Of a DNA stretch of 64,000 bases, positions 38,511 to 64,000 are shown in pieces (within the stretch, counting starts at the first letter, position 1; each line of letters starts with the position of its first letter). The translations under genes were made by a program, and so were the position numbers. Under the pieces are notes generated by a model. It was not told where the DNA came from. It did not search any database and worked only from the letters and a program-made list of their open reading frames with translations. The stretch covers positions 124,001 to 188,000 of the forward strand of contig JAQGNY010000005.1 of NCBI GenBank assembly GCA_028293825.1, written 5' to 3'. Origin of the DNA: Verrucomicrobiaceae bacterium (lineage in GTDB: Bacteria; Pseudomonadota; Gammaproteobacteria; Pseudomonadales; CAMLJR01).

Positions 38511-38716
38511 TAATGTACCTCCTGATTACTGTGATTTCGATAGCATTTTTAGCAAATCGCTTGCCGTATAATCTGCCTCTTCAAGGAATGATACGCGCCA
38601 TCATGGAAGAGGGCATTCGTTTATCTTTGCCTTCCAGTCGCCTCATCCTTGATTCCGATGAATGCTCATTTGAGCGTTTCCCTATTGGGAAAATAATTTG
38701 AATTATGGAGAAAGTT

Positions 38717-40522
38717 ATGCACCTCAAGGAAGGGCGTTTGCTCTCGGCAAGAACAGCGATAGTGTCGGCAATGATGGGTTGCGTATTAAGTGGCGCCGTT
38801 TCAGCGGCGCCGCTGAGCCATGTACAATTTTTAGGCGACAACACCAATGGCACCAATCATATCTCCGCACTACAAGGAACCGTGACCAGCATCGACGGAA
38901 ACTTTGTTTACGCGATTTCAGTGACAGAAGGTGCGATAACGATTTTTTCACGCGATAAAAGCTCGAAACTGCTCAACTTTGTCGGTGAGGTAATTGAAAA
39001 TACGTCGACTCACCAAGGTATTCACAGCCCTACAAGTATTCTCGTTTCACCCGATAACAAATATCTCTACGCGATAGGCATCGAAGCGGGATCTAGCGAC
39101 CACATTATCGCGGTCTTTGAGCGCGATGAATTAACCGGTGGGCTGACTGCGGTTCAGTCTTACAAAGGACGCGGCTTAAACAACCCTGCAGAAATTATTG
39201 TTCCGAAAGACGGCAATCAAATTTATGTATCGAGCTGGAATGGGAATTCCTTCACCGTGCTCAAACGCGCAGTGAACGGCATTCTCAGTGAGTTGCAATT
39301 TATTCTAAAGCCTTCGCAAAGTGTGCCCAGTACTTATGACTATGTTCATTGCGCGACACTTTCGCCGGATCAAAGCAATGTGTACGTCGCGCTTGAAGAT
39401 ACAAATATTCCCGGTGCCACAATTGTCCACTATCGGCGTGATCTTGCTACCGGGCTGTTGACGTTTGTCGACAAAATTGACTCGAGCGTTGCCGATCTGA
39501 AGAAAGCCGACACCATTACCGGTATAGAAGTAAGTCCAGATGGAAAATTTCTTTATGTAACTAATACGGGCGGTGGGAATGGCGCCGACACGGTTCCTGC
39601 AAATATTTTGTCTTTTTCCATCTCCGCAACGGGTTCTTTAGCCCTGGTGGACCGCTATTTTGTAAACGATCCGACTGGAAATCCGATCAAGCTTTATTGG
39701 CCTGAAAATATCGAGATCAGTAATAACGGCAAGCTGGCCTATGTAGCCGATGACGTCACCGATTCGCTGGTATTGTTTTCACGAAATCAGATTACGGGCG
39801 CACTGACTTACTTCGGGGCGGAGCACAGCAATAAGGACGGCGTTGTCGATACCCGAGAGGCAAAGCGAGTTGAGTTGTCGCCCGATAACACGTCGGCATT
39901 TATTTCCGGGCAGTGGGGTCTTACTGTATTTGACGCGTATACTTCGTTGTCGATCACGAACACGCCGTCAGCGGCGAGCGTTGCGCCCGACGCAACAATT
40001 TCATACAGCTTGCAGGTAACGAATAATCACAGCGCGGTCGCCCATCATACGACGATTACTTTCACGCCTCCTGCCGGCACCTCAATTGCCACGATAACGC
40101 CCTCCAGTAGTTCAACAATTTGCTCTCAGGCCGAGGGTGTTGCTTCTTGCGAGGTCGGAAATCTTGTAGTTAAAGCTGCGGAGAAAATTGTTATTACTAT
40201 TATTGCGCCTGCTTCGGTAGGATCAATTAACGCTACCGCCAGTGTTGCAGCCGATGAGGTTGACGACAATCTTGGCGATAATTCCGCGACAGCGAGTATT
40301 TCCATTGCAGATAGTGCCGCCCCAGCTACAAGCCCCGGCTCCGGGGCTAGCGCTGGAACGAACACGGGAACGAGCGCTTCAACGCCACCGACCGCAACCA
40401 GTAGCGATTCCGCCAGTCCAGCTCCGAAGAAAAAAGGTGGGGGCGGGAGCTTCGATTGGATAACTGCAATCGCAACTTCTTTATTGGCTTTATATAGTGC
40501 GATGAAGCGGATTGGAAAATAG
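38717..40522 (+). CDS. Secreted beta-propeller + DUF11-like protein with GlyGly-CTERM tail
   Basis: Signal MHLKEGRLLSARTAIVSAMMGCVLSGAVSAA; YncE/lactonase-like repeats (VSPDNKYLYAIG, LSPDQSNVYVAL, VSPDGKFLYVTN, ISNNGKLAYVAD, LSPDNTSAFISG); DUF11-like segment; C-terminal KKKGGGGSFDWITAIATSLLALYSAMKRIGK. Confidence 0.85.
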   Translation: MHLKEGRLLSARTAIVSAMMGCVLSGAVSAAPLSHVQFLGDNTNGTNHISALQGTVTSIDGNFVYAISVTEGAITIFSRDKSSKLLNFVGEVIENTSTHQGIHSPTSILVSPDNKYLYAIGIEAGSSDHIIAVFERDELTGGLTAVQSYKGRGLNNPAEIIVPKDGNQIYVSSWNGNSFTVLKRAVNGILSELQFILKPSQSVPSTYDYVHCATLSPDQSNVYVALEDTNIPGATIVHYRRDLATGLLTFVDKIDSSVADLKKADTITGIEVSPDGKFLYVTNTGGGNGADTVPANILSFSISATGSLALVDRYFVNDPTGNPIKLYWPENIEISNNGKLAYVADDVTDSLVLFSRNQITGALTYFGAEHSNKDGVVDTREAKRVELSPDNTSAFISGQWGLTVFDAYTSLSITNTPSAASVAPDATISYSLQVTNNHSAVAHHTTITFTPPAGTSIATITPSSSSTICSQAEGVASCEVGNLVVKAAEKIVITIIAPASVGSINATASVAADEVDDNLGDNSATASISIADSAAPATSPGSGASAGTNTGTSASTPPTATSSDSASPAPKKKGGGGSFDWITAIATSLLALYSAMKRIGK

Positions 40523-48684: not shown

Positions 48685-49236
48685 ATGACCATGTTCAATC
48701 GAGCGTTAGGGTTTGTTTTAGTTTGCTTGCTGGCGGCTTCGTCTGCTTTCGCGCATAGCGCGGGCGTCGAGGCGCAGCTGCAAGCGCGTCTGGTGGTGCT
48801 GCAGGCCGATGGCAAAGAAAGTTACCGCGCGGCGGATACCGCCGGCCCCGGCGCTGTAGTCGACTATCAGGTGACTTACTCGAATCGCACTGGCGCCCCG
48901 GTTGCCCATGTACTCGCGACATTGCCGATTCCGGCCGGCGCGATGGTGTATCTGCCCAGCTCCGCTAAACCCGTTCAAGTTCTCACCAGCATCGATGGCA
49001 CCACCTTCGCGCCGACGCCACTGCGCCGCACTGTCGTCAATGCGCAGGGCGCATCGGTGACGCAAATCGTTCCGGTCAGCGAATACCGTTTTTTACGTTG
49101 GGACCTCGGCACCTTGGCTGCCGGTGCATCCAGCATTGTCAGCGCTCGGATGAAAGTGATCGACGCCGACACCGCAGCTTCTGTTTCTACCACCACCAAC
49201 AACACCGATAGCGCTGTGTCTGGAGCACGGAAATGA
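48685..49236 (+). CDS. Secreted single-DUF11-like protein (183 aa)
   Basis: Signal RALGFVLVCLLAASSAFA; VDYQVTYSNRTGAPVAHVLATLPIPAGAMVYLPSS; stop overlaps the next start (ATGATGACC/TGA). Confidence 0.75.
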   Translation: MTMFNRALGFVLVCLLAASSAFAHSAGVEAQLQARLVVLQADGKESYRAADTAGPGAVVDYQVTYSNRTGAPVAHVLATLPIPAGAMVYLPSSAKPVQVLTSIDGTTFAPTPLRRTVVNAQGASVTQIVPVSEYRFLRWDLGTLAAGASSIVSARMKVIDADTAASVSTTTNNTDSAVSGARK

Positions 49237-51881
49237 TGACCTTTGCCGCAATTAAACGTCGCGCCGGCCTTAGCCGGTTTTCTAAATTGGGTGCTGCGGT
49301 GGTATTGGCCAGCGCGCTGATCAATTCGATCGGCGCCGCGTTGGCCGCGCCAGCCGCCGGCACCAGCATCGGCAACCAGGCATCGGCCACGTATTCGGAC
49401 GCGTCCGCCACCGTGCGCACCGTGACCAGCAATACCGTCATCACCATCGTGCAACAGGTGGCGAGCCTGACGTTGACCGCGAACGGCGCTAAAAATGTCG
49501 CGCTCGGCGGGCAAGTCAGCTATCCGCATACCCTGACCAACACCGGTAACGGCACCGATACGTTCGCGCTGTCGGTCGGCAACACCGGTGCTTTCAGCAT
49601 GACTAGCGTACTTCTGTATGCCGATGCGAACGGCGATGGCGTGCCCGATAACGCCGTGCCGATCACCACCAGCGGCGAATTGGCCGCTGGCGCGATCTTC
49701 AAGTTTGTCGCGGTCGGTGTTGTGCCGGTCTCGGCCGTGGCCGGCAACACCAACACGATCACTGTCACCAGCACCAGTACCTTCACCGGTTCAGTGACCG
49801 CCAACAACACCGATGTCACCACCGTGTCCAGCAACGCGGTTATCAACGTCACCAAGGCCATCGACGTTGCCGCCGGCCTGCCAGGCTCCGGTCCGCGTAC
49901 ATACACGTTGACTTACACCAACATCGGCGTCGGCGCGGCTACCAACCTGACCTTGGCCGACGTGATCCCGTCCGGCATGACCTACGTAGCGGCCAGCGCG
50001 CGTTGGAGCAGCACCGGTGCGACCGTCCTCACCGATGCCAACGCAGCGGATAACCAAAGCGGCGTCATTTACGACTTCAACGTCACCACTGCCAACCGCG
50101 TTACCGCTGTTATCGCGTCGGTCCCGGTCGGCGCCAGCGGCACGTTGAGCTTCCAAGTGAATGTGAACGCGAATGCGTTGCCGGGTGCGAACGCTGCGAC
50201 CTTGAACACCGCGTCGTACACCTACAACGACGGCGCCGTGACGACCTCCAGCACCAACACCAACAGCGTGCAGTTCGTGGTGACGCAAGCGGCGGCAGTA
50301 ACATTGAGTGGTTCGACCGTCGCCAGCGCCCCGCAAGGCGGCACTGTGACCTTTACCGACACAGTCACCAACACCGGCAACGGCACCGACAGCTTCGATA
50401 TCACCACCGGCGTTTCGACCTTTCCGGTCGGCACCACCTTCACGTTGTACAAAGCCGATGGCGTAACCCCGCTGATCGATAGCAACGGCAATGGCGTACC
50501 GGATACCGGTCCGCTGGCCCCGGCAGGCACGATGAATGTCGTGATCAAAGCGAACTTGCCGGCCGGCAGCACCGGCGGCTCGTACACCGTCAAAGCGATT
50601 GCGGTATCGAAAGTCGATCCGACCAAAACCGCCAATGCCGATAACACGTTGACGACGATCGCCACCAGCACGGTCGATCTGACCAACAACTCGTTCGGCG
50701 TTGGCGCTCCCGGTTTGGGCGCAGGTCCGGAAGGCAGCCCGGTCGTCACCGTCAGCGCCACCGCCGGCTCCATCGCGCACTTCACCCTGTATGTCGCCAA
50801 CGGCAGCGGCGTGGCCGATACCTTCAACCTGCAAGCCAGCACCGACGTGAATTTCGCCGGCCTGACCTTGCCAACCGGCTGGACGGTCGCGTTCAAGGAC
50901 GTCAACGGCGCCATCATCACCAACACCGGCGTGATCAATGCCGGCAGCAATGTCGCCGTGTATGCCGATGTCACCGTCCCGGCGGGAACGCTGGCCGCTA
51001 CCACCGACGTGTTCTTCCGCGCACTGTCGCCTACTTCCGGCGCCAATGACCGCCTGCACGATGCCATCCAAATCAGCGGCGCCCGCACGTTGACGCTGAC
51101 GCCGAACCACACCGGTCAGGCTTCCAGCGGCGGCACCGTGGTCTACACCCACACCATCACCAACAACGGCAATGTGTTGGAAGGCGATGGCGTGATCAGC
51201 CTGGTTGCACTCACCACCGCCGATTCCGGCAGCGGATTCAGCTCCACCGTGTACTGGGATCAAAACAACAACGGCGTACTCGACGTGACCGATCCGGCCG
51301 TGACCACTCTCGCGCAATTAGTTGGCGGCACCAACGGCGCCAGCACCGCGGCCGGTTTGGCCCCGGGCGAGAAAGCGACGCTGTTCGTGAAAGTGTACTC
51401 AGCGCCGGGCGCCGCTACCGGTGCCAGCGATACCGCGACCCTGACCGCAACCGTTACCGGTTTGGTCGGCGGCGTGGCGGTACCGGCAGCGGTGTCGGCA
51501 GCGGTGTCGGTAACCGACAGCACCACCATCATCGCCGGCGATCTGCAGCTGGTAATTCTGCAAGCGCTCGACGCCGCCTGCGATGGCACCGCCGATACTG
51601 CGTTCGCGGCGACCATCATCAGCGGCGGTGCCATCCCCGGTGCGTGCATTCGCTACCAAATCACCGCGACCAACGTCGGCTCCAGCGATGTCACCGCAGT
51701 GATTATCAGCAACGCCACCCCGGCCAACACCAAGTACCACGCCACTGTGGCGGCGACGACTTCGCGCGGTTCGGTAACCACGCCGAGCGCCAATACGGTC
51801 GGCACGGTACAGGCGACGGTGGGCACGCTGACCCCGACCCAAACCGCCGTGCTGACTTACGGTGTGCGCATCGACCCGTGA
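49233..51881 (+). CDS. Secreted multi-repeat protein (DUF11-like repeats) 882 aa
   Basis: Signal peptide to ALAAPAAG; repeats such as GQVSYPHTLTNTGNGTDTFALSV, GGTVTFTDTVTNTGNGTDSFDIT, GGTVVYTHTITNNGNVLEGDG and DANGDGVPD / DSNGNGVPD / DQNNNGVLD loops. Confidence 0.82.
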   Translation: MMTFAAIKRRAGLSRFSKLGAAVVLASALINSIGAALAAPAAGTSIGNQASATYSDASATVRTVTSNTVITIVQQVASLTLTANGAKNVALGGQVSYPHTLTNTGNGTDTFALSVGNTGAFSMTSVLLYADANGDGVPDNAVPITTSGELAAGAIFKFVAVGVVPVSAVAGNTNTITVTSTSTFTGSVTANNTDVTTVSSNAVINVTKAIDVAAGLPGSGPRTYTLTYTNIGVGAATNLTLADVIPSGMTYVAASARWSSTGATVLTDANAADNQSGVIYDFNVTTANRVTAVIASVPVGASGTLSFQVNVNANALPGANAATLNTASYTYNDGAVTTSSTNTNSVQFVVTQAAAVTLSGSTVASAPQGGTVTFTDTVTNTGNGTDSFDITTGVSTFPVGTTFTLYKADGVTPLIDSNGNGVPDTGPLAPAGTMNVVIKANLPAGSTGGSYTVKAIAVSKVDPTKTANADNTLTTIATSTVDLTNNSFGVGAPGLGAGPEGSPVVTVSATAGSIAHFTLYVANGSGVADTFNLQASTDVNFAGLTLPTGWTVAFKDVNGAIITNTGVINAGSNVAVYADVTVPAGTLAATTDVFFRALSPTSGANDRLHDAIQISGARTLTLTPNHTGQASSGGTVVYTHTITNNGNVLEGDGVISLVALTTADSGSGFSSTVYWDQNNNGVLDVTDPAVTTLAQLVGGTNGASTAAGLAPGEKATLFVKVYSAPGAATGASDTATLTATVTGLVGGVAVPAAVSAAVSVTDSTTIIAGDLQLVILQALDAACDGTADTAFAATIISGGAIPGACIRYQITATNVGSSDVTAVIISNATPANTKYHATVAATTSRGSVTTPSANTVGTVQATVGTLTPTQTAVLTYGVRIDP

Positions 51882-51887
51882 CAATTC

Positions 51888-51904
51888 GCGGGGCAGCGCC
51901 CCGC
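51888..51904 (+). terminator. GC-rich hairpin after 882-aa gene
   Basis: GCGGGGC AGC GCCCCGC then TGATTTT; weak T-tract. Confidence 0.5.
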
Positions 51905-52046
51905 TGATTTTCGCACCAACTAACCACGCAATTTAACGCCTCGTCTTTCGGCCTCCCAACTAGCTCTGGGGGCCGGACGAGGAACGCTCGCGCCTAAAAA
52001 TTGAGTTTTCTCAACTAAAGCGCGGCGAAGCTGACAGGGAACCGCC

Positions 52047-55000
52047 ATGCTCCGCACTGCTGCCCAACAACTGATCGCGACGGTGCTGCTCTGTGCAGCC
52101 ATCGTTGCGCCGGTCGTTGCGGCGCCGGTAGCAGGCAATAGTATCGACAACCAAGCAAGCGTCAGTTATGTCGATCAAAGCACTGGTTTAGCCGCAGTGC
52201 GCACCTCCAGTATCGTCAGCACCATCGTCCAAAGCGCCGATGTCACCCAACTGACACCGGATCGCACCCTCGCTCGCCCGCAAGGCACCGTCGTTACGTT
52301 CGCGCATACCCTGATCAACGCCGGCAACGGCGCCGCCACTTACGCGTTAAGCGCAGTATTGGTCGGCGGTGGCACGGTGAATCTGACCGATCTGCATATC
52401 TATCGCGACGCCAACGGCAATGGCATGCTCGATCCGGGTGAAGCCGAAATCAGCAGTGCTGTGCTGGCGGTCAATCAAAGTATCGATCTCATCGTCAGCG
52501 CACAGATTCCCGCTGCTGCAGTAGTAGGCCAACAGGGCCAAATCCAGCTGCGCGCGCAGAGCAATCTGCAAGCCGCTGCCGTTATCGCTACCGATACCGT
52601 GATCGTCAACGATGGCGCTTCGGTGACGTTAAGTCTGTCCACGCCAAATGCAGAGCGCGTGCGCAATCAGAAAATCCCGCTGCAATTACTGATCAAAAAT
52701 ATCGGCACCGACGCGGTCGGCATCCCGGTCACCGTCGATGATGTCGCGGTCAATCGTGTTCTGGTCGAAATGACCATTCCCGTCGGCACCACATTTGTCT
52801 CCGCCGAGGCACCGGCTGGCGCGCAAGTGCTTTTCCACCGTGTAAACACACCACGCATGGTGCTGGTCAGTGTTGCGCCGGAGCCGAAAAACATCGACGG
52901 CGTGTTTTACTCATTCACCGAATTCAACGCCGGTCGCAGCGCGGAAGTGACGTTGACGGTGAATGTCGAAAGCAACGTCATTTCGCAGATTCAATCGACA
53001 GCGCAGGTCTGGTTTGACGACACCCACGCGGCGCAAATCGAAGGCACCCCGGCGGATATCGACTGGGCGCAATCCAATACCGTGCGCGTTGCCGTGACCG
53101 CGGCGCCGGCCGCGATTCACTACTACAGCAACGATCAGTTCACGACCGAAGCGGCGACCACTGGGTTAGGCACGCCGCTGCATATTCAAGTCGATGCCAT
53201 CGCCTGCAACCAAAATCCGGCTGCCATCGATACGATGAAAATGACGATTCGCTCGTCCTGGTCGGGCGAATCGGAAACCTTCACCGCCACCGAAACCGGC
53301 GCCGATACCAGCGTGTTTCGCATCAATACGGTCGCTACCGTCGATGCCAGCAATGGCGCTACCAAACCCGAGAACGGTGTCGTCGAAACCGTCCACAACG
53401 ATACCCTGACCGCGACGATTAGCGGCTGCGGTGTCGGCGATATTTGGACCTCGATTCTGGTCGATCCGGACGGCGTCGTATTCGACAGCAAAACCAACGA
53501 GCCGATCAGCGGCGCCACCGTGCAATTGATCGACGTCACCGGCGCCGGCAATGGTGGCAGTGCCGGCGGCGCGGCGCGGGTATTTTTCGAAGACGGCGTG
53601 ACCCCGGCGCAAAGCGTGGTTCTGACCGCTGCCGATGGCATGTTCCGGTTCCCGTTGGTCGCTGCCAGCACCTATCGGTTGAAAGTCAGCACACCGCCGG
53701 GCCATGCCTTCGCATCGAAAGTGCCGGCTTCGTTGTTGCCCGCTGGCCGCGCCATCGATAACTCCGCGTCCTACGGTGGCGATTTTGTCGTCAGCGGCGC
53801 GATGGCGGCAGTGCATATCGATCTGCCGGTCGATCCCGCTGCGGTCGATGGTTTGCTGGTCGAAAAAACCACCTCGCGCAGCACCGCTGAGATCGGCGAT
53901 TTCGTCGACTACAGCGTGCAGGTTAAAAACAATTCCGGCACCACGTTCAACCGCCTCGCCGTACGCGACACGCTGCCGCACGGTTTTGCCTATCAGCCCG
54001 ACACGCTGCGTCGCGACGGCGTCCGCGTGGCCGATCCGGTCGGCGGTCGCGGCCCGGTGCTGAGTTTCGCTATCGATTCGCTCGTCGATGGCGCCACCGT
54101 CAAACTGACCTACCGCGTACGCATCGGTGTCGGCGCGCAATTGGGCGACGGCATCAACCGCGCGCAAGCGACCAGCACCGCGCCATTGGCGATCAGCAAC
54201 GTGGCCGAAGCCAAGGTGAAAGTCGAAGGCGGCGTGTTTAGCGATCGCGGTTTCGTGCTTGGCAAAATCTTCGCCGATTGCAACGGCGACAAAATTCAAA
54301 ACGCGGGCGAGCCCGGCGTTCCCGGCGTGCGCGTATGGCTGGAAGATGGCACCTACGCCATCACCGATGGCCTCGGCAAATACAGCTTCTACGGTTTGAG
54401 CCCGCGCACCCACGTCGCCAAAGTCGATCCGTCGACGGTGCCGGCCGGCGCCACTTTCGCCGTGCTGGATCAGCGCAATGCCGGCGTCGGTGACAGCCGC
54501 TTTATCGATTTGAAAAATGGCGAACTGGCGCGCGCCGACTTCGCCTTGACGCAGTGCGACAAAACGCTGCTCGACACGATTGCGCAACGCCGCGTGCAGG
54601 CCGAGCAACATACCGGCGAACTCGAAGCCGGCGTCAACGTTGCGCTGACTTTGGACAACAACGCTGTGGCCGATCCGCGCTCGAAAGCCGCCAGCGGTTT
54701 GATCGCCGACAACAACGCCAACCCGCAGGCGCTGGCCACTGCCATCGCCACCGTTGAAGCCGCGATTCTGGCGCAACGCCCACTTGCCGAAGTGGCCGAC
54801 GCGCTCGATAACAGCACCGATTTCGTCGGCCTGAGCGATGGCGCCGCGGTCGCCGGCACGCAAATTCGGCTGCTGGTAAAAGGCTTGCTCGGCGCGTCGC
54901 TGAATGTGTTGGTCAACGGCGATGCGATTCCCGACAGCCGTCTCGGCACCCGCGTTACCCGCGCCGAAAAACAACTCGAAGTGCTCGAATTTATCGGCGT

Positions 55001-57914
55001 CGAATTGAAGCCAGGCAGCAACACGCTGACGCTGGAACAGCGCGATCCGTTCGGCAATTTGCGCGCAACCAAAACCATCAGCGTGCGCGCGCCGGGCGAG
55101 CTGCGCCGCATCCGTATCGAGCGCGTGGCGACCGACAGCGCGGCTGCCAACGATGCCAGCAACGCAAATGTCAAAGTCGCGGTTTTCCTCGAAGATAAAG
55201 ACGGCTTGCCGGTTTCGTCGCGCACCGCGCTGACGTTGGAAACCAGCAACGGCGCCTGGGCTGCGGAAGATTGCGATCCGACCGAGCCGGGCACGCAGGT
55301 GTTTGTCGAAAGCGGCCGTAGCGAATTCGTGCTGCGCGCGCCAGAGCAGCCCGGCAGCGCCGAGGTGAAAGTATCGAGCGGCAATTTAAGCGCCGAAACC
55401 CACGTCGATTTTCTGCCGACGCTGCGCGATATGGTCGCCGCCGGTGTGATCGAAGGCACGTTGAAATTGGACAAACTCGGCTCCGGCGCATTGCAGCCGG
55501 CGCGTCAGCAGGACGGTTTCGAGCAAGAGTTAAAACAGTTTTCGCGCGATAACGGCAAAGCCGCCGCGCGCGCTGCGGTATTTTTGAAGGGTAAAATCAA
55601 AGGCGATTACCTGCTGACGCTCGGTTACGACTCCGACAAAGAAACGCGCGAGCGTTTGTTCCGCGATATTCAGCCCGATCAGTTTTATCCGGTGTACGGC
55701 GATGCGTCGATCAAAGGTTACGACGCGCAATCGACGCAGAAAATGTACGTGCGCATCGACAAAAATAAATCGTGGTTGCTGTACGGCGATTTCAACACAC
55801 CGACCGCGACCAGCACGCGCGCACTGACCGCTTACAACCGCAGCCTGACCGGCGTGCGCGAGCATTACGAAAACGACAAAGTCGCCGTGAACACTTTCGC
55901 CAGCCGCGACAGCACCCGCCAAGTCGTCGAAGAATTACGTGCGAATGGCACCTCCGGTCCGTATGCGCTGAGCAACAGCGATCTGATCGAAAATAGCGAG
56001 CAGGTCGAAATCATCACCCGCGATCGCAACCAACCGGCGCTAATCATCAAAAGCGTGGCGATGTCGCGCTTCGCCGATTACGAACTCGAACCGTTTACCG
56101 GTCGCATTCTGTTCCGCGCGCCGATCGCCAGTGTCGATGCCGATTTAAATCCGAACTCGGTACGTGTCACTTATGAAGTCGATGCCGGCGGCGCGACCTT
56201 CTGGGTTGGCGGTGTCGATGCCACGATGAAAGTCACCAAGAACATTGCCGTCGGCGCGGTCGATATCGAAGATCGCGATCCTATCGATACCGGCGCATTG
56301 CGCGGCGCCAATATGACGCTGACGTTCGGTGGCGAAAACGGCGCGAAAACTACCGCAATCACCGAAGTCGCGCACAGCGATCGCTTCAGTGTCGGCAGCG
56401 GCGACGCGCAGCGTATCGATATCAAACACGACAGCGACACGCTGCAGGCACGCGTTTACGCCGGGCGCGCCGATGCCGATTTTTATAATCCGTCGGCCAC
56501 GTTATCGAGAGGCCACTCTGAAGCCGGTGCCAAAATTTCGCGCGCAATCGACGAGCGCACACGTTTAGTGGCCGATGCAATTCACAGCGGCGACGATATC
56601 AACCGCGGCCATCGCGAAGGCATATTGGCCGGTGTCGAGCACGCGTTCGATGGCAACGTGAAGCTCGAAGTCGGCGTGCGTCGCACCCACGAAGAAGCCG
56701 GTTCGATCAACACCGGCACACTCGACGGCGTCACCATCAATCCAGCCGATGCGGCTGCGCCGGGCACCACCCAAGACACCACTAGCTACCGCGCCAAATT
56801 GGGCGCGCCGGTTCCGGGTCTGGCCGCTGCATCCGTTTATGGCGAAGCCGAGCAAGCGTTCAACGATGCCGATAAAAAATTACTGGCGCTCGGCGGCGAA
56901 TACCGCATCAACGATAAAAGCCGTTTGTACGGTCGCCACGAATTTATTTCGTCGCTGTCCGGCCCGTACGCGTTCGATACCAATCAACGCCGCGACACCA
57001 CGCTGTTCGGCATCGACAACGAGTACATGAAAGATGGCCGCGCCTACAGCGAATACCGCGCGCGCGATGCGTTCAGCGGCCGCGAAGCGGAAGCGGCGAT
57101 GGGTTTGAAAAACCAATGGGCTGTAGCCGAAGGCGTGCGTATCAACACCAGCGCCGAGCGCGTGCGCACCATCGCCGGCACCGACGACGACAATGCATCG
57201 AGCGCATTGGCCGGCGGCGTCGAATACACGCGCAATCCGAACTGGAAAGGCAGCGCGCGTTTGGAATGGCGCAATGCACCGGGCTCGACCGGCATCCTCA
57301 ACACGCTCGGCTTAGCGTGGAAACTCGATCAAGAGTGGACCTTCCTCGGCCGCAATATTTTGAACAAAATCGATAACAGCGGCGCCAATAGTGGCGATCG
57401 GCTGCAAGATCGTCTGCAATTAGGTTTCGCGTATCGCGATGCCGATACCAACGTGTGGAATGGACTGGGACGTTATGAATTCAAACACGAGCAGGACGAC
57501 ACCGCCGTTACCGGCTTCTGGCATCAGGCGCATATCGTATCGGTACAGGCCAACGTGCAGGCGCAGCGCGCGGTGGTATTCAGCACGCGCTACGCCGGCA
57601 AATACGCGATCGATCAAACCGGCGGTATCGATAGCCGCAGCGTGGTGCATCTGGTCGCCGGTCGAGCCACGTGGGATTTCGCACCGCGTTGGGATGCCGG
57701 TGTGCAAGTCAGCTCGCTGTTTTCCGCCGGCAGCATGCAGAAGGGTGTCGGCGCCGAAATCGGCTATCAAGTTAAAGACAATCTGTGGGTCTCGACCGGC
57801 TACAACGTGTTCGGTTTTCATGATCGCGATTTGGCCTCGGAAGACAACACCGAGCGCGGCGTGTATTTTCGAGTGCGCTTTAAATTCGACGAAAACACGC
57901 TCGGTTTAAATTGA
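52047..57914 (+). CDS. Giant surface protein: DUF11-like + SdrD_B-like domains and putative C-terminal outer-membrane beta-barrel (1955 aa)
   Basis: Signal LIATVLLCAAIVAPVVAAPVAG; DFVDYSVQVKNNSGTTFNRLAVRDTLPHGFAYQPDTLR (DUF11-like); VLGKIFADCNGDKIQNAGEPGVPGVRVWLEDGTYAITDGLGKYSF (SdrD_B-like); C-terminal ~700 aa of alternating short strands ending ERGVYFRVRFKFDENTLGLN. Confidence 0.85.
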   Translation: MLRTAAQQLIATVLLCAAIVAPVVAAPVAGNSIDNQASVSYVDQSTGLAAVRTSSIVSTIVQSADVTQLTPDRTLARPQGTVVTFAHTLINAGNGAATYALSAVLVGGGTVNLTDLHIYRDANGNGMLDPGEAEISSAVLAVNQSIDLIVSAQIPAAAVVGQQGQIQLRAQSNLQAAAVIATDTVIVNDGASVTLSLSTPNAERVRNQKIPLQLLIKNIGTDAVGIPVTVDDVAVNRVLVEMTIPVGTTFVSAEAPAGAQVLFHRVNTPRMVLVSVAPEPKNIDGVFYSFTEFNAGRSAEVTLTVNVESNVISQIQSTAQVWFDDTHAAQIEGTPADIDWAQSNTVRVAVTAAPAAIHYYSNDQFTTEAATTGLGTPLHIQVDAIACNQNPAAIDTMKMTIRSSWSGESETFTATETGADTSVFRINTVATVDASNGATKPENGVVETVHNDTLTATISGCGVGDIWTSILVDPDGVVFDSKTNEPISGATVQLIDVTGAGNGGSAGGAARVFFEDGVTPAQSVVLTAADGMFRFPLVAASTYRLKVSTPPGHAFASKVPASLLPAGRAIDNSASYGGDFVVSGAMAAVHIDLPVDPAAVDGLLVEKTTSRSTAEIGDFVDYSVQVKNNSGTTFNRLAVRDTLPHGFAYQPDTLRRDGVRVADPVGGRGPVLSFAIDSLVDGATVKLTYRVRIGVGAQLGDGINRAQATSTAPLAISNVAEAKVKVEGGVFSDRGFVLGKIFADCNGDKIQNAGEPGVPGVRVWLEDGTYAITDGLGKYSFYGLSPRTHVAKVDPSTVPAGATFAVLDQRNAGVGDSRFIDLKNGELARADFALTQCDKTLLDTIAQRRVQAEQHTGELEAGVNVALTLDNNAVADPRSKAASGLIADNNANPQALATAIATVEAAILAQRPLAEVADALDNSTDFVGLSDGAAVAGTQIRLLVKGLLGASLNVLVNGDAIPDSRLGTRVTRAEKQLEVLEFIGVELKPGSNTLTLEQRDPFGNLRATKTISVRAPGELRRIRIERVATDSAAANDASNANVKVAVFLEDKDGLPVSSRTALTLETSNGAWAAEDCDPTEPGTQVFVESGRSEFVLRAPEQPGSAEVKVSSGNLSAETHVDFLPTLRDMVAAGVIEGTLKLDKLGSGALQPARQQDGFEQELKQFSRDNGKAAARAAVFLKGKIKGDYLLTLGYDSDKETRERLFRDIQPDQFYPVYGDASIKGYDAQSTQKMYVRIDKNKSWLLYGDFNTPTATSTRALTAYNRSLTGVREHYENDKVAVNTFASRDSTRQVVEELRANGTSGPYALSNSDLIENSEQVEIITRDRNQPALIIKSVAMSRFADYELEPFTGRILFRAPIASVDADLNPNSVRVTYEVDAGGATFWVGGVDATMKVTKNIAVGAVDIEDRDPIDTGALRGANMTLTFGGENGAKTTAITEVAHSDRFSVGSGDAQRIDIKHDSDTLQARVYAGRADADFYNPSATLSRGHSEAGAKISRAIDERTRLVADAIHSGDDINRGHREGILAGVEHAFDGNVKLEVGVRRTHEEAGSINTGTLDGVTINPADAAAPGTTQDTTSYRAKLGAPVPGLAAASVYGEAEQAFNDADKKLLALGGEYRINDKSRLYGRHEFISSLSGPYAFDTNQRRDTTLFGIDNEYMKDGRAYSEYRARDAFSGREAEAAMGLKNQWAVAEGVRINTSAERVRTIAGTDDDNASSALAGGVEYTRNPNWKGSARLEWRNAPGSTGILNTLGLAWKLDQEWTFLGRNILNKIDNSGANSGDRLQDRLQLGFAYRDADTNVWNGLGRYEFKHEQDDTAVTGFWHQAHIVSVQANVQAQRAVVFSTRYAGKYAIDQTGGIDSRSVVHLVAGRATWDFAPRWDAGVQVSSLFSAGSMQKGVGAEIGYQVKDNLWVSTGYNVFGFHDRDLASEDNTERGVYFRVRFKFDENTLGLN

Positions 57915-57925
57915 GCAGGCATTTG

Positions 57926-60748
57926 ATGGAAGCGTATGCAGCCGTGACTTTATTGCTCGAATCAGCATTGCTCAAATCAGAGCCGCTAAAAGCAGCGCTG
58001 AAAAAAATCGGACTGGCGCTGTGTCTGAGTTATTTCAGCGCGTTGTTTTTTGTATCGAGTGCGACCGCTTGCACGGTCGGCGCCTGTCTTTCCGCCGGCC
58101 CACGTTTGGCCAGTATCGATACCGCGCACAGCGCGTTATTAAATGGCTTGCTGGGCAGTTTGTTAGGCAGCGGCAGCGGTCTCTCGCTCACCGCGCTCGA
58201 TTGGAATGCCATCGCGCAGAGCAATATTAATTTGTCGGTATTTTTAAATGCGCTGCAAGTGCAAACCAGCACCGCGAGTCCAGCGGCTGCATTAAATGCA
58301 AACGCGACAATTGCACAAATACTCAACGCCGCGGTGACTGCCGCGACGGCCGATAGCAATACTGCGGCAGTGTCGGCATTGGGCAATGCGATTACCAAAA
58401 TCGGTGCACTTGGCGGCTCGATAAAACTCGGCGATTTATTGAATGTGTCGTTGCCGACCGGTGCGCTCGCCACCACCAAAATAAATCTGCTTGAATTAAT
58501 CACTGGCAGTATTCAATTAGCGAATTACAAAAATGTCGCGACCACGCCGACGCCGATTGGCGTTTCGGTTTCCGCGCTCGGTTTAAGTAGCACGTTAACC
58601 GGCGTTAATTTATATGCGCAGGTGGTTGAGCCGCCGGTTTACATTTGCGGCGGCACTGGGGTGCAGTTTTACAGCGCAGCTATTCGCATCAAATTAAATA
58701 TGACGCTGTTGTCGCTGACACCGGATACGGCGTTATTGAATTCAATTGCAGGTTTGCTCGGCACCAGTTTGACGGTCGGCCAGTTGCAGATTTATCTCGA
58801 TGTGGCAAAAGCGCAGGGCACGTTGAATTCGATTAATTCGTTGGCGAATGCAGTGGTTGTGCAAGCCACGCCCGGTGTTGCGAATTTGTATTTGGGCAGC
58901 ATGACCGATTCGGTATTTTTCACGCGCACGCATGCAATAAATGTTGCGGCCGATTTGGGTTACGCCACCATCGCCAATTTAACGGTAACGCTGCCGATTG
59001 TCGGCGCCACGGTGGTGGCGGTGCAGGCAAAAAGCGCGGCATTGGGCACCGCGCCGCTTAGTGATTTTCTGACATTTACTGGCCCGTTTCCGCAGACGAA
59101 AACATCGGGAACATCGACCAGCTTCATCGCGAATTTATTAAGTTCGCTGGCGACAAATCTGCAATTGCAATTGACACCCAGTTTGGGGGGGATTCTCGAC
59201 GCGGCATTGCTGACGCCGCTGAAAACAATTATCAACGGTGCCATCACGCCGGTGTTGACGACGCTCCTCACCAGCCTGGCTGATCCATTATTGGAGTTAC
59301 TCGGTGTGCGTATTGGCGAAGTCGATGTGTCGGTAAACGGCACGGGTTTGGTTTGTAGCCTTTCCGGTTACGGCTACAACGACGCCAATCACAGCTCGTC
59401 GCGCGACAACGGTGAGATCGGTTGCGGCAGCACTTTGTACGCGAAATTAATTCCGGCGAGTACGCCGAGCGGTCCCGCTGTCGACGCCGTTGCAGTGGAT
59501 ACCAGCACCGGCGCCTACAGCTTTTCCAATGTGTATAACGGCAATTACACCGTTGTCATCGACAACAACGCGACGCTCAGCGATATCACACCGACCATGC
59601 CGTCAGGCTGGCTCGGCACCGAAGCGCCAACGCAAATACGCACCGTTGCGGTGGTCACGGATGTATCGAATCAGAACTTCGGTTTTTTCAACGGCAGTCG
59701 CATCAGCGGCAATGTATTTAAAGACAACGGCATTAGCGGTGCCATTCCGAACAATGGCATTCAAGAGGCGAGCGAAAGCGGGGTCGCAGCTGTCATCGTA
59801 AAAGCGATGAACAGTGCCGATGCAGTGCTTTACGACAGCACGCCGACGACAACCAATGGCGCTTACACATTGTGGGTGCCGGCCGCAGCGGGCAATAACG
59901 CGCTGCATATTATCGATGTGCGCCCGGCCGCAACGATTGCGGTGAGCGGCAATGTCGGCACCACCGGCGGCACGTTCACACGCACTACCGATACCGTTAA
60001 TTTCACCAACACGATTGGCACCAGTTACAGCGGCGTTAATTTCGGTTTGGTGCCGGACAATAATTTCAGCAACGACAATCAACAAACGATATTGCCCGGC
60101 GCCATCGCCTATCACCCGCATGCATTTATCGCCGGCGCCGCAGGGCAATTAACTTTTGCCAGCAGTGGTGTCGCCACGCCCACCAGTGCCTGGGGCGCAA
60201 TAATTTATCGCGATACCAACTGCAACAGCGTGGTCGATGCCGGCGAAGTGGCGATCACTGCCGCTATTGCCGTCGTCGCCGATCAGAAAATTTGCATCGT
60301 GATAAAAACCACATCGCCACCCGACGCCGTTTACAACGCGCGTTACGTGCAAACCGTTAGCGCGAGTTTCGTTTACACCACGGCAGCTTTCAGCGGCTTA
60401 CAAAATCGCACCGATATCACCACCGTCGGCCGCGCTGGCGACGCCGGTTTGAGCTTGGTTAAAACCGTCGATAAAGCCACCGCAAAAACCGGCGATGTGA
60501 TCACATACACGATTCGTTATGAAAACAAAAGCAGCGGCGATTTACAAAATTTAAAAATTTACGACGCAACGCCCGCGTTCACTGTATTTGGCTCGGCACT
60601 CTGCGGCGCGTTGCCAACCGGATTAACCGGCTGCTCGTTAACAAAACAACCGACCGCTGGAAACACCGGCGCATTGGAGTGGACATTTGTCGGCGCACTA
60701 ACTTCCGGTTCGTTCGGTACAGTTACTTTTAATGTGACGTTGCAGTAA
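57926..60748 (+). CDS. Secreted protein with TadG-like N-terminal segment, SdrD_B-like and DUF11-like domains
   Basis: ATG 57926 (ORF track start TTG 57911); SLTALDWNAIAQSNINLSVFLNALQVQ...ATIAQILNAAVTAA...LGDLLNVS; SGNVFKDNGISGAIPNNGIQEASESGVAAVIVKAMN; TGDVITYTIRYENKSSGDLQNLKIYDATPAF. Confidence 0.75.
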   Translation: MEAYAAVTLLLESALLKSEPLKAALKKIGLALCLSYFSALFFVSSATACTVGACLSAGPRLASIDTAHSALLNGLLGSLLGSGSGLSLTALDWNAIAQSNINLSVFLNALQVQTSTASPAAALNANATIAQILNAAVTAATADSNTAAVSALGNAITKIGALGGSIKLGDLLNVSLPTGALATTKINLLELITGSIQLANYKNVATTPTPIGVSVSALGLSSTLTGVNLYAQVVEPPVYICGGTGVQFYSAAIRIKLNMTLLSLTPDTALLNSIAGLLGTSLTVGQLQIYLDVAKAQGTLNSINSLANAVVVQATPGVANLYLGSMTDSVFFTRTHAINVAADLGYATIANLTVTLPIVGATVVAVQAKSAALGTAPLSDFLTFTGPFPQTKTSGTSTSFIANLLSSLATNLQLQLTPSLGGILDAALLTPLKTIINGAITPVLTTLLTSLADPLLELLGVRIGEVDVSVNGTGLVCSLSGYGYNDANHSSSRDNGEIGCGSTLYAKLIPASTPSGPAVDAVAVDTSTGAYSFSNVYNGNYTVVIDNNATLSDITPTMPSGWLGTEAPTQIRTVAVVTDVSNQNFGFFNGSRISGNVFKDNGISGAIPNNGIQEASESGVAAVIVKAMNSADAVLYDSTPTTTNGAYTLWVPAAAGNNALHIIDVRPAATIAVSGNVGTTGGTFTRTTDTVNFTNTIGTSYSGVNFGLVPDNNFSNDNQQTILPGAIAYHPHAFIAGAAGQLTFASSGVATPTSAWGAIIYRDTNCNSVVDAGEVAITAAIAVVADQKICIVIKTTSPPDAVYNARYVQTVSASFVYTTAAFSGLQNRTDITTVGRAGDAGLSLVKTVDKATAKTGDVITYTIRYENKSSGDLQNLKIYDATPAFTVFGSALCGALPTGLTGCSLTKQPTAGNTGALEWTFVGALTSGSFGTVTFNVTLQ

Positions 60749-60843: not shown

Positions 60844-61170
60844 GTGGAAAAAATAATGAGCAGCAAAGCGGTGGTTTTGCTAATTGTGATAATGGCAAAC
60901 GGTTTGCTGACGGGGTGCCTAGCGCAATCGACGCTTCGTGAAAGTGCGGCAAGAAATGATGCGCTCTCTGATAAATATCGGTCGCCTAATGCCGATGAGC
61001 TTGACCTGCATTGGTCGAAGGCCTACCGAGAGCAAGCCGAACAAGATCGACGCGATTCGAATAAGCTTTCCATTGCGGATGAATTTTTCGGCAGCCTAAT
61101 GATTTTATCGTTTGACGCTCTGATCGGAAACAACAACGATAAGTCGCCGAATTTAATCTATCGTCCGTAG
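60844..61170 (+). CDS. Hypothetical lipoprotein (108 aa)
   Basis: GTG start; MSSKAVVLLIVIMANGLLTGCLAQ lipobox. Confidence 0.65.
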   Translation: MEKIMSSKAVVLLIVIMANGLLTGCLAQSTLRESAARNDALSDKYRSPNADELDLHWSKAYREQAEQDRRDSNKLSIADEFFGSLMILSFDALIGNNNDKSPNLIYRP

Positions 61171-63269: not shown

Positions 63270-64000
63270 ATGAGTCATTCAATTACGCGCGTGCTGGGCT
63301 TTATCGGCATTTTTATTTTTGCAGTGCCGGTATTTGCCGATCCGCCGGCGCGCGTCGGTCGCATCAGTTATATCGAAGGCAAGGCGTCGTTTAGCGCGGG
63401 GCATGCGAGCGCCGAAAATGCCGATGACGATGCGAATCGAGACGATGCCGATCAAGCCGGCGCTAATCAAGAAAGCGCCAATCGAGACAATGTCGATAGA
63501 GACAGTACCGATAGAGGCAGTGCCAATCAAAGCGGCGCAGCGGATGACGATCAATGGAGCGATGCGACGCTGAATTATCCGATAACCACCGGCGATAGTT
63601 TGTGGACCGAGCCGAACGCGCGACTTGAATTGCAAATCGGTTCGGCGGAAGTACGCATGGATCATTCGACCGAATTCAATGTCGTGCAACTCGACGATGA
63701 CGCGACGCAATTGCGCGTCGATCAGGGCGTGATAAATGTGCATTTACATGCGGTGCCGACCGGCGGTATTTCGGTAATAACCCCGCAGGGCCGAATCGAT
63801 TTAGTGAAACCCGGCAGCTACCACATTGACGCCGGCTATCCGCCTGCCGATGAGGTGACCGATAACAACGCCGGCCAAAATAATTCCTCCGCAAATAACG
63901 ACGATTTACAAAACTCAAAAGTAAGAATCACCACGCTCGAAGGCGAGGCGCAAATTAACGAAGCACGCGCTCATTTGGTGATATTGCCGGGCGAAGGCGC
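63270..64000 (+). CDS. FecR-domain / DUF6600-like exported protein (runs off right edge)
   Basis: ATG 63270 open to window end: MSHSITRVLGFIGIFIFAVPVFADPPARVGRISYIEGKASFSAG...WSDATLNYPITTGDSLWTEPNARLELQIGSAEVRMDHSTEFNVVQLDDD...GGISVITPQGRIDLVKPGSYHI. Absent from the ORF track because no stop is reached. Confidence 0.85.
   Translation, partial: MSHSITRVLGFIGIFIFAVPVFADPPARVGRISYIEGKASFSAGHASAENADDDANRDDADQAGANQESANRDNVDRDSTDRGSANQSGAADDDQWSDATLNYPITTGDSLWTEPNARLELQIGSAEVRMDHSTEFNVVQLDDDATQLRVDQGVINVHLHAVPTGGISVITPQGRIDLVKPGSYHIDAGYPPADEVTDNNAGQNNSSANNDDLQNSKVRITTLEGEAQINEARAHLVILPGEG

Follow-up and report, generated by a model that had tools for sequence, protein, structure and literature searches.

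As is generally known, chaperone-usher pili such as type 1 and P pili are built with an acceptor-only tip and shaft subunits that are both donor and acceptor, where an N-terminal donor strand makes up for an absent last (G) strand, and they use a barrel in the outer membrane. In pilus operons (fim/pap) a partial terminator comes after the major-subunit gene. In SpyTag/SpyCatcher, which was engineered by splitting a CnaB domain, a strand bearing one reactive residue binds to an incomplete domain in which the other two are found. Here we analyse four consecutive genes, g1 to g4, at positions 48685-60748 of a 64,000-nucleotide stretch of bacterial DNA (contig JAQGNY010000005.1, positions 124,001 to 188,000, hereafter the window), whose products, we propose with a probability of about 60%, would form a surface fibre by donor-strand complementation, held in the outer membrane by g3.

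Such a fibre would share with chaperone-usher pili the acceptor-only tip, the donor and acceptor shaft, the N-terminal donor strand, the absent last strand, the outer-membrane barrel and the hairpin after the major-subunit gene. It would differ from them in that no usher homology and no Pfam match to an usher or chaperone, PapD-like families included, was found here, and in having a barrel protein that itself bears a donor strand, multi-domain DUF11 rods, and a division of Lys/Asp and Asn between subunits. This division is the point of likeness to SpyTag/SpyCatcher, except that the present one would be a natural split of the CnaA type. As for sortase pili, no LPXTG-type C-terminus is visible in g1, g2 or g4, an observation on the proteins themselves, no search for a sortase gene having been made.

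Other fibres and DUF11 proteins offer partial parallels. The Sulfolobus archaeal thread Saci_0406 is chained head to tail by donor-strand complementation, with a proposed intersubunit covalent bond and a separate cap-like protein (PMC9715654). Donor-strand chaining, a possible covalent joint and an extra cap-like protein would recur here, but the thread is archaeal, is made of a single small subunit bonded from N-terminal amine to Asn (n to n+2), and involves neither an outer membrane nor a barrel. Donor-strand-exchanged fibres are also named for TasA and for the archaeal bundling pili (PMC11952670). They would resemble the present system in exchanging strands without the chaperone-usher pathway. 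To our knowledge they have no DUF11 repeats, no barrel anchor and no split isopeptide triad. The CLIPPER (DUF11) fibrillar adhesins have the same domain family and Lys-Asp-Asn triad, but they are single-chain stalks with intradomain bonds, whereas in the present system a terminal domain is incomplete and its Asn is carried by a different protein (PMC12617251; 9IFR). In the accessible part of their description, the DUF11 grappling hooks GhpA and GhlA are surface filaments of DUF11 beads as well, but consist of one giant polypeptide, and neither distinct donor and acceptor subunits nor a barrel anchor are described there (PMC13319060).

No published description of the present system was found in the mainly open-access literature, in which the archaeal thread, the CLIPPER adhesins and the grappling hooks come closest to it, and its genes are currently named only, for example, "DUF11 domain-containing protein". 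If the proposal is correct, these genes would define a class of donor-strand fibre, so far undescribed and anchored by a barrel, across many Gram-negative groups, give an assembly rule, testable in vitro, for Gram-negative DUF11 proteins, and provide a natural counterpart of SpyTag/SpyCatcher with many orthogonal pairs. It would also raise the question of how the parts of a fibre get through the outer membrane when neither a chaperone nor an usher is recognised.

Incomplete domains, donor segments and the isopeptide residues

The four genes had been picked out in a sequence-only reading of the window as consecutive same-strand genes of 183, 882, 1955 and about 940 amino acids (aa), and the open reading frames confirm them on the + strand, to which all coordinates below refer: g1 (48685..49236, 183 aa), g2 (49233..51881, 882 aa), g3 (52047..57914, 1955 aa) and g4 (57911..60748, 945 aa). 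The overlap of 4 nucleotides (nt) between g1 and g2 is as described there. The spacing of 11 nt given for g3 and g4 holds for a start of g4 at the ATG at 57926, which yields 940 aa; the frame extends back to a TTG at 57911, which makes it overlap g3, and the real start may lie farther inside, because the signal peptide is found near residues 31-53. Export signals, expected on every protein, are visible by eye in all four. The shared DUF11-like repeats were recovered by Pfam in g2, g3 and g4 (32.8, 44.2 and 28.7 bits, all above the curated cut-off of 24.6), together with SdrD_B in g3 and g4 and CarboxypepD_reg in g3. The single domain of g1 has no Pfam or NCBIfam match, retrieved nothing in a PDB search, and is DUF11-like by a purpose-built domain model only.

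The last domains of g2 and g4 are incomplete and are without one strand. In both proteins a beta strand runs right up to the stop codon, and the last DUF11 domain matches the Pfam model only to position 83-84 of 114. These acceptor domains, each stopping short of the last strand, lie at 51516..51878 in g2 (Ile775, Asn827) and at 60440..60745 in g4 (Lys851, Asp885). Where the internal DUF11 of g2, which is complete, continues past this point, it has the Asn-bearing strand ATLNTASYTYNDG, and a similar segment opens the mature N-termini of g2 (AGTSIGNQASATYSD) and g3 (AGNSIDNQASVSYVD). The donor segment of g2 thereby occupies 49347..49412 (mature N-terminus APAAGTSIGNQASATYSD..., Asn48) and that of g3 52122..52226 (mature N-terminus APVAGNSIDNQASVSYVD..., Asn35). 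Among relatives, 47 of 48 g2 and 44 of 60 g3 proteins have the donor motif after the signal peptide, compared with only 1 of 33 g4 and 4 of 41 g1. The g1 protein has no last strand and no donor motif, and is classed as an acceptor.

This phase shift was computed with a 157-position model built on the intact internal DUF11 of g2, against which C-terminal domains were scored with and without an added N-terminus, always at the best cut point. Alone, the last domain of g2 or g4 covers model positions from about 12-15 to 100-111. Addition of a g2 N-terminus raised the score of g2 or g4 acceptors by 20 bits, and a g3 N-terminus raised it by 14 to 15 bits, the match extending to position 154-155 in either case; control additions (g4 or g1 N-termini, shuffles) brought about 3 to 6 bits. 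For g1 acceptors the average gain was 17.6 bits with the g2 N-terminus and 12.8 with that of g3. From these scores, and from the structural model that follows, we infer that the N-terminal extension of the next subunit would supply the absent strand.

The g2 and g3 genes are in the same frame, and reading the stops between them as Gly therefore yields a natural tethered construct. AlphaFold2 was applied to the g2 C-terminal domain, the tether and the g3 N-terminus, with read-through rows and a cut before the first domain of g3. With the g2 C-terminal domain as sole partner, the g3 donor segment was modelled as strands seated on it, at a predicted local distance difference test score (pLDDT) of 82-96; the tether of about 80 residues reached 43-56, tether and signal peptide being of low confidence. 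In Foldseek the joint model matched the CLIPPER domain 9IFR over 228 columns that span the tether, with a target TM-score of 0.66.

The residues of the isopeptide bond are divided in the same manner. A DUF11 Lys-Asn bond aided by Asp has been solved in 9IFR, with Lys715, Asp748 and Asn806 (PMC12617251). The complete internal DUF11 of g2 carries Lys208, Asp243 and Asn325, and across relatives its columns hold Lys in 24/32, Asp in 33/34 and Asn in 34/34. Terminal acceptors with both Lys and Asp make up 45 of 46 in g2 and 33 of 33 in g4, the Lys being counted on a MAFFT alignment because the columns of the hidden Markov model placed it poorly owing to an insertion. The donor Asn is found in 43 of 46 g2 (the other three are unaligned) and 39 of 42 g3 proteins. 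With Lys and Asp in the acceptors and Asn supplied by the g2 and g3 donors, bonds between subunits are therefore possible. The isopeptide Asp occurs in none of 39 g1 relatives. The lone exception among the 46 g2 acceptors is that of the window itself, in which Lys is replaced by Ile775 and Asp by Asn827. In this genome the g4 acceptor alone could join covalently, to judge from its residues, and the simultaneous loss of Lys and Asp in g2 fits a coupled function of the two. Beyond the fibre as such, we put forward only tentatively the idea of a widespread Gram-negative fibre with subunits welded without sortase by natural tag-and-catcher chemistry and a base covalently tied to the giant barrel.

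Barrel, hairpin and conservation of the gene set

The g3 protein consists of the donor strand, an immunoglobulin (Ig)-like region, CarboxypepD_reg, DUF11, SdrD_B, a further Ig-like region and the C-terminal barrel. Its complete DUF11 (53853..54182; Lys607, Asp641, Asn704) is a candidate for an internal isopeptide bond and matches 9IFR with an E-value of 9e-6. A barrel-like C-terminus had been ascribed to the 1955-aa protein and to none of the others, and this is supported by AlphaFold2 on g3 residues 1144-1955 aligned with 62 relatives (mean pLDDT 80, predicted TM-score 0.72). The predicted outer-membrane beta-barrel (55575..57881) has about 36-38 strands, arranged as some six strands, an inserted beta domain (55914..56150) and then about 32 strands as a meander. 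Foldseek returned low-TM-score matches to LptD, SprA, SlpA, SDBC, TonB receptors and PapC, that to SprA at a TM-score of about 0.1-0.23, the same level as unrelated barrels. Since these are many kinds of large barrel, all at low TM-score, we claim a giant outer-membrane barrel at the C-terminus of g3, as predicted by the model, and no particular family. The PDB search with the barrel profile gave no match to SprA, its sole and weak match being an OmpT porin (E-value 7e-4). There is no Pfam usher match in g3, and alignment of the barrel family with FimD of E. coli K-12 by hhalign gave a probability of 0.2%. Pfam likewise returned no autotransporter match, and the predicted 36-38 strands compare with 12 in the type V autotransporter barrel.

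A terminator-like hairpin lies between g2 and g3 (51888..51904; z -1.9). Across loci a strong hairpin (z < -2) follows the stop codon of g2 in 34 of 45 cases, of g1 in 2 of 40, of g3 in 4 of 58 and of g4 in 4 of 32, and random stretches within genes score like the ends of g1, g3 and g4. It is probably a partial terminator that sets g2 in excess.

In a scan of one genome per species, relatives of the barrel number at least 552 in public genomes, of which 80 were kept (L023-L102); they come from Burkholderiales and other Betaproteobacteria, Acinetobacter, Alkanindiges, Lysobacter, Luteimonas, Desulfuromonadales, Verrucomicrobia, Gemmatimonadetes and one acidobacterium. The commonest computed gene order is g1-g2-g3-[OmpA]-g4. 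Co-conservation of the genes and a predicted barrel in the 1955-aa protein had been chosen beforehand as the tests by which the proposal of a joint system could fail, and both outcomes favoured it. The genes occur together far more often than by chance: g2 stands directly 5' of g3 in at least 43 of the 50 fused-type g3 loci that have upstream sequence, and g1 is present in at least 37 of the 46 with enough of it, both counts being lower bounds because long antisense frames at times confused the simple caller of reading frames. The order was also sampled independently (295 genomes), and 40 of these genomes carry the barrel. Of the 30 barrel matches with E < 1e-100, 29 are preceded by g1 on the same strand at a distance of up to about 10 kb, and the single one without it lies at a contig edge; among the 255 genomes that lack a barrel, g1 was found in only 9. 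One other genome of the window's genus was searched and lacks the barrel. Together with the predicted barrel, this co-conservation makes the multi-component surface structure anchored by g3, as put forward in the sequence-only reading, the right frame, to which the strand-donation logic, the split triad and the hairpin behind g2 are additions of the present analysis.

An OmpA-family gene stands between g3 and g4 in many relatives, and OmpA-like stretches are seen by eye inside g3 of distant ones. Loci in which the N-terminal part of g4 is like that of the window are mostly without the OmpA gene, as is the window. In Acinetobacter g4 is often upstream of g1. A copy of the gene set with an OmpA gene is found on plasmid p4 of Acinetobacter haemolyticus w12 (L109, CP085288.1:191166-203531), where it is annotated merely as DUF11, NEW3 and OmpA proteins, with g2 in several pieces; the plasmid is mobilizable, and the set lies near arsenic-resistance genes and a transposase. 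A second layout (L054, L064, L071, L076, L078, L085, L095, L097, L098, L100, L102) has the barrel as a separate gene of ~1000-1300 aa behind a DUF11-type protein of ~970-3100 aa, without g1 or g2, and often followed by a gene of 335-440 aa, which in L054 is of the OmpA family. In locus L012, beside g3, g1 is flanked by two g2-like proteins of only 363 and 411 aa, which may be a smaller form of the shaft subunit. Genomes of genus g57 (family f36) carry two or three g1-like genes apart from one another, and in some of these genomes no barrel was detected.

The g4 protein is composed of a variable N-terminal region, SdrD_B repeats and the C-terminal DUF11 acceptor, without a donor segment. Its N-terminal ~450 residues (58070-59398) are conserved in just six loci of the set and have no Pfam or NCBIfam match; the remaining g4 proteins have unrelated N-terminal parts, as variable tips would have. 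A likeness of this region to the C-terminal domain of TadG was considered and dropped, neither Pfam (up to an E-value of 5) nor NCBIfam (up to 0.1) giving a match.

The proposed fibre and other explanations

In the fibre that we propose, g2, with a donor at its start and an acceptor at its end, would chain head to tail as the putative shaft subunit; g4, with an acceptor end only, would be the tip; and g3, with a donor end and the giant barrel, would serve as base and anchor. A chain g4-(g2)n-g3 with these pairings would balance, with n+1 acceptors and n+1 donors, and the hairpin would keep g2 and g1 above g3 and g4 in amount. The g1 protein might be a spare acceptor that guards or chaperones donor strands reversibly, or else a cap, as suggested by its lack of the isopeptide Asp and by the excess, equal to that of g2, in which it would be made. 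Joints in most relatives may be welded covalently between the acceptor Lys/Asp and the donor Asn, and the base is possibly also tied to peptidoglycan, through the OmpA-like stretches or the OmpA gene of the operon. The absent last strand, the donor strand, the split of Lys/Asp from Asn and the hairpin of g2 speak for a fibre rather than a layer.

Several points weigh against this proposal. About 16 of the 60 g3 proteins fail the strict donor motif, although most of these have a looser version of it, and donors raise the score of the window's g1 only slightly, from 10.6 to 15.0 bits; the place of g1 in a fibre is guesswork. The g2 acceptor of the window has neither Lys nor Asp, so that in this genome the usual triad cannot give a covalent shaft. 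The joint was modelled without the first domain of g3 and hence with no competing partner. No homologue of a chaperone or usher was recognised among the operon proteins by Pfam or by hhalign with FimD. Finally, the loci are related by descent, many of them from Acinetobacter, and the counts are not independent events.

In type 9 secretion C-terminal domains act as sorting signals. The last DUF11 shared by g2 and g4 might similarly be a signal for export or display that is read by the g3 barrel, the proteins standing side by side without strand exchange. The conservation of this domain up to the stop codon of g4 proteins whose N-terminal parts are unrelated would suit such a signal, as would the very large barrel, with SprA among its Foldseek matches, and the split-type loci that pair a barrel with one giant DUF11 protein. 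We nevertheless consider it unlikely, given that it leaves unexplained why the last strand is absent, why the same strand opens g2 and g3 but not g4 and g1, and why the Asn has shifted to the donors; the TM-scores, furthermore, are low for every barrel. A historical origin, in which a giant DUF11 adhesin of an ancestor was split into the four proteins and the break phase is a relic with no strand exchange now, would account for the DUF11-type repeats common to all parts and for the occurrence of both split and fused layouts (a long DUF11 protein plus a separate barrel of 1100-1200 aa in L054, L064, L085 and others). However, every part has its own export signal, the break points coincide with one and the same loop in different phyla, Asn is conserved in the donors and Lys/Asp in the acceptors, and the hairpin is specific to g2, which together make this reading highly improbable.

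The OmpA-type protein encoded in the operon of many relatives would by its family bind peptidoglycan, and its presence, like that of SlpA and SDBC among the Foldseek matches of the barrel, would agree with a surface layer or porin-like coat in which g3 would act chiefly as a large porin or channel that displays Ig domains at the surface, like Deinococcus SlpA, and would be decorated by g1, g2 and g4. We regard such a coat as improbable, since a hairpin only after g2 and the logic of donors and acceptors are easier to reconcile with polymeric g2 than with a coat made of g3.

Sequence context and neighbouring genes

The island of four genes has a guanine-plus-cytosine (GC) content of 0.591, against 0.522 in the rest of the window, and the GC at third codon positions of g2 is 0.80 against a mean of 0.59. 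A promoter scan gave no convincing sigma-70 promoter, with fewer candidates than in shuffled sequence, and an Rfam search gave no match. A link to type 11 secretion was set aside, as the paper concerned had surfaced mainly through DUF1194 and mentions DUF11 incidentally. Directly 3' of g4, on the same strand, a predicted lipoprotein of 108 aa without a family match is encoded at 60844-61170, and an exported FecR-like protein, with a Pfam score slightly under the cut-off, begins at 63270 and leaves the window at 64000. Upstream, at 38705-40522, lies the gene for an exported protein of 605 aa with propeller-like repeats and one DUF11 domain; by eye it has neither a donor nor an acceptor end, and its C-terminus, KKKGGGGSFDWITAIATSLLALYSAMKRIGK, resembles a GlyGly-CTERM sorting tail.

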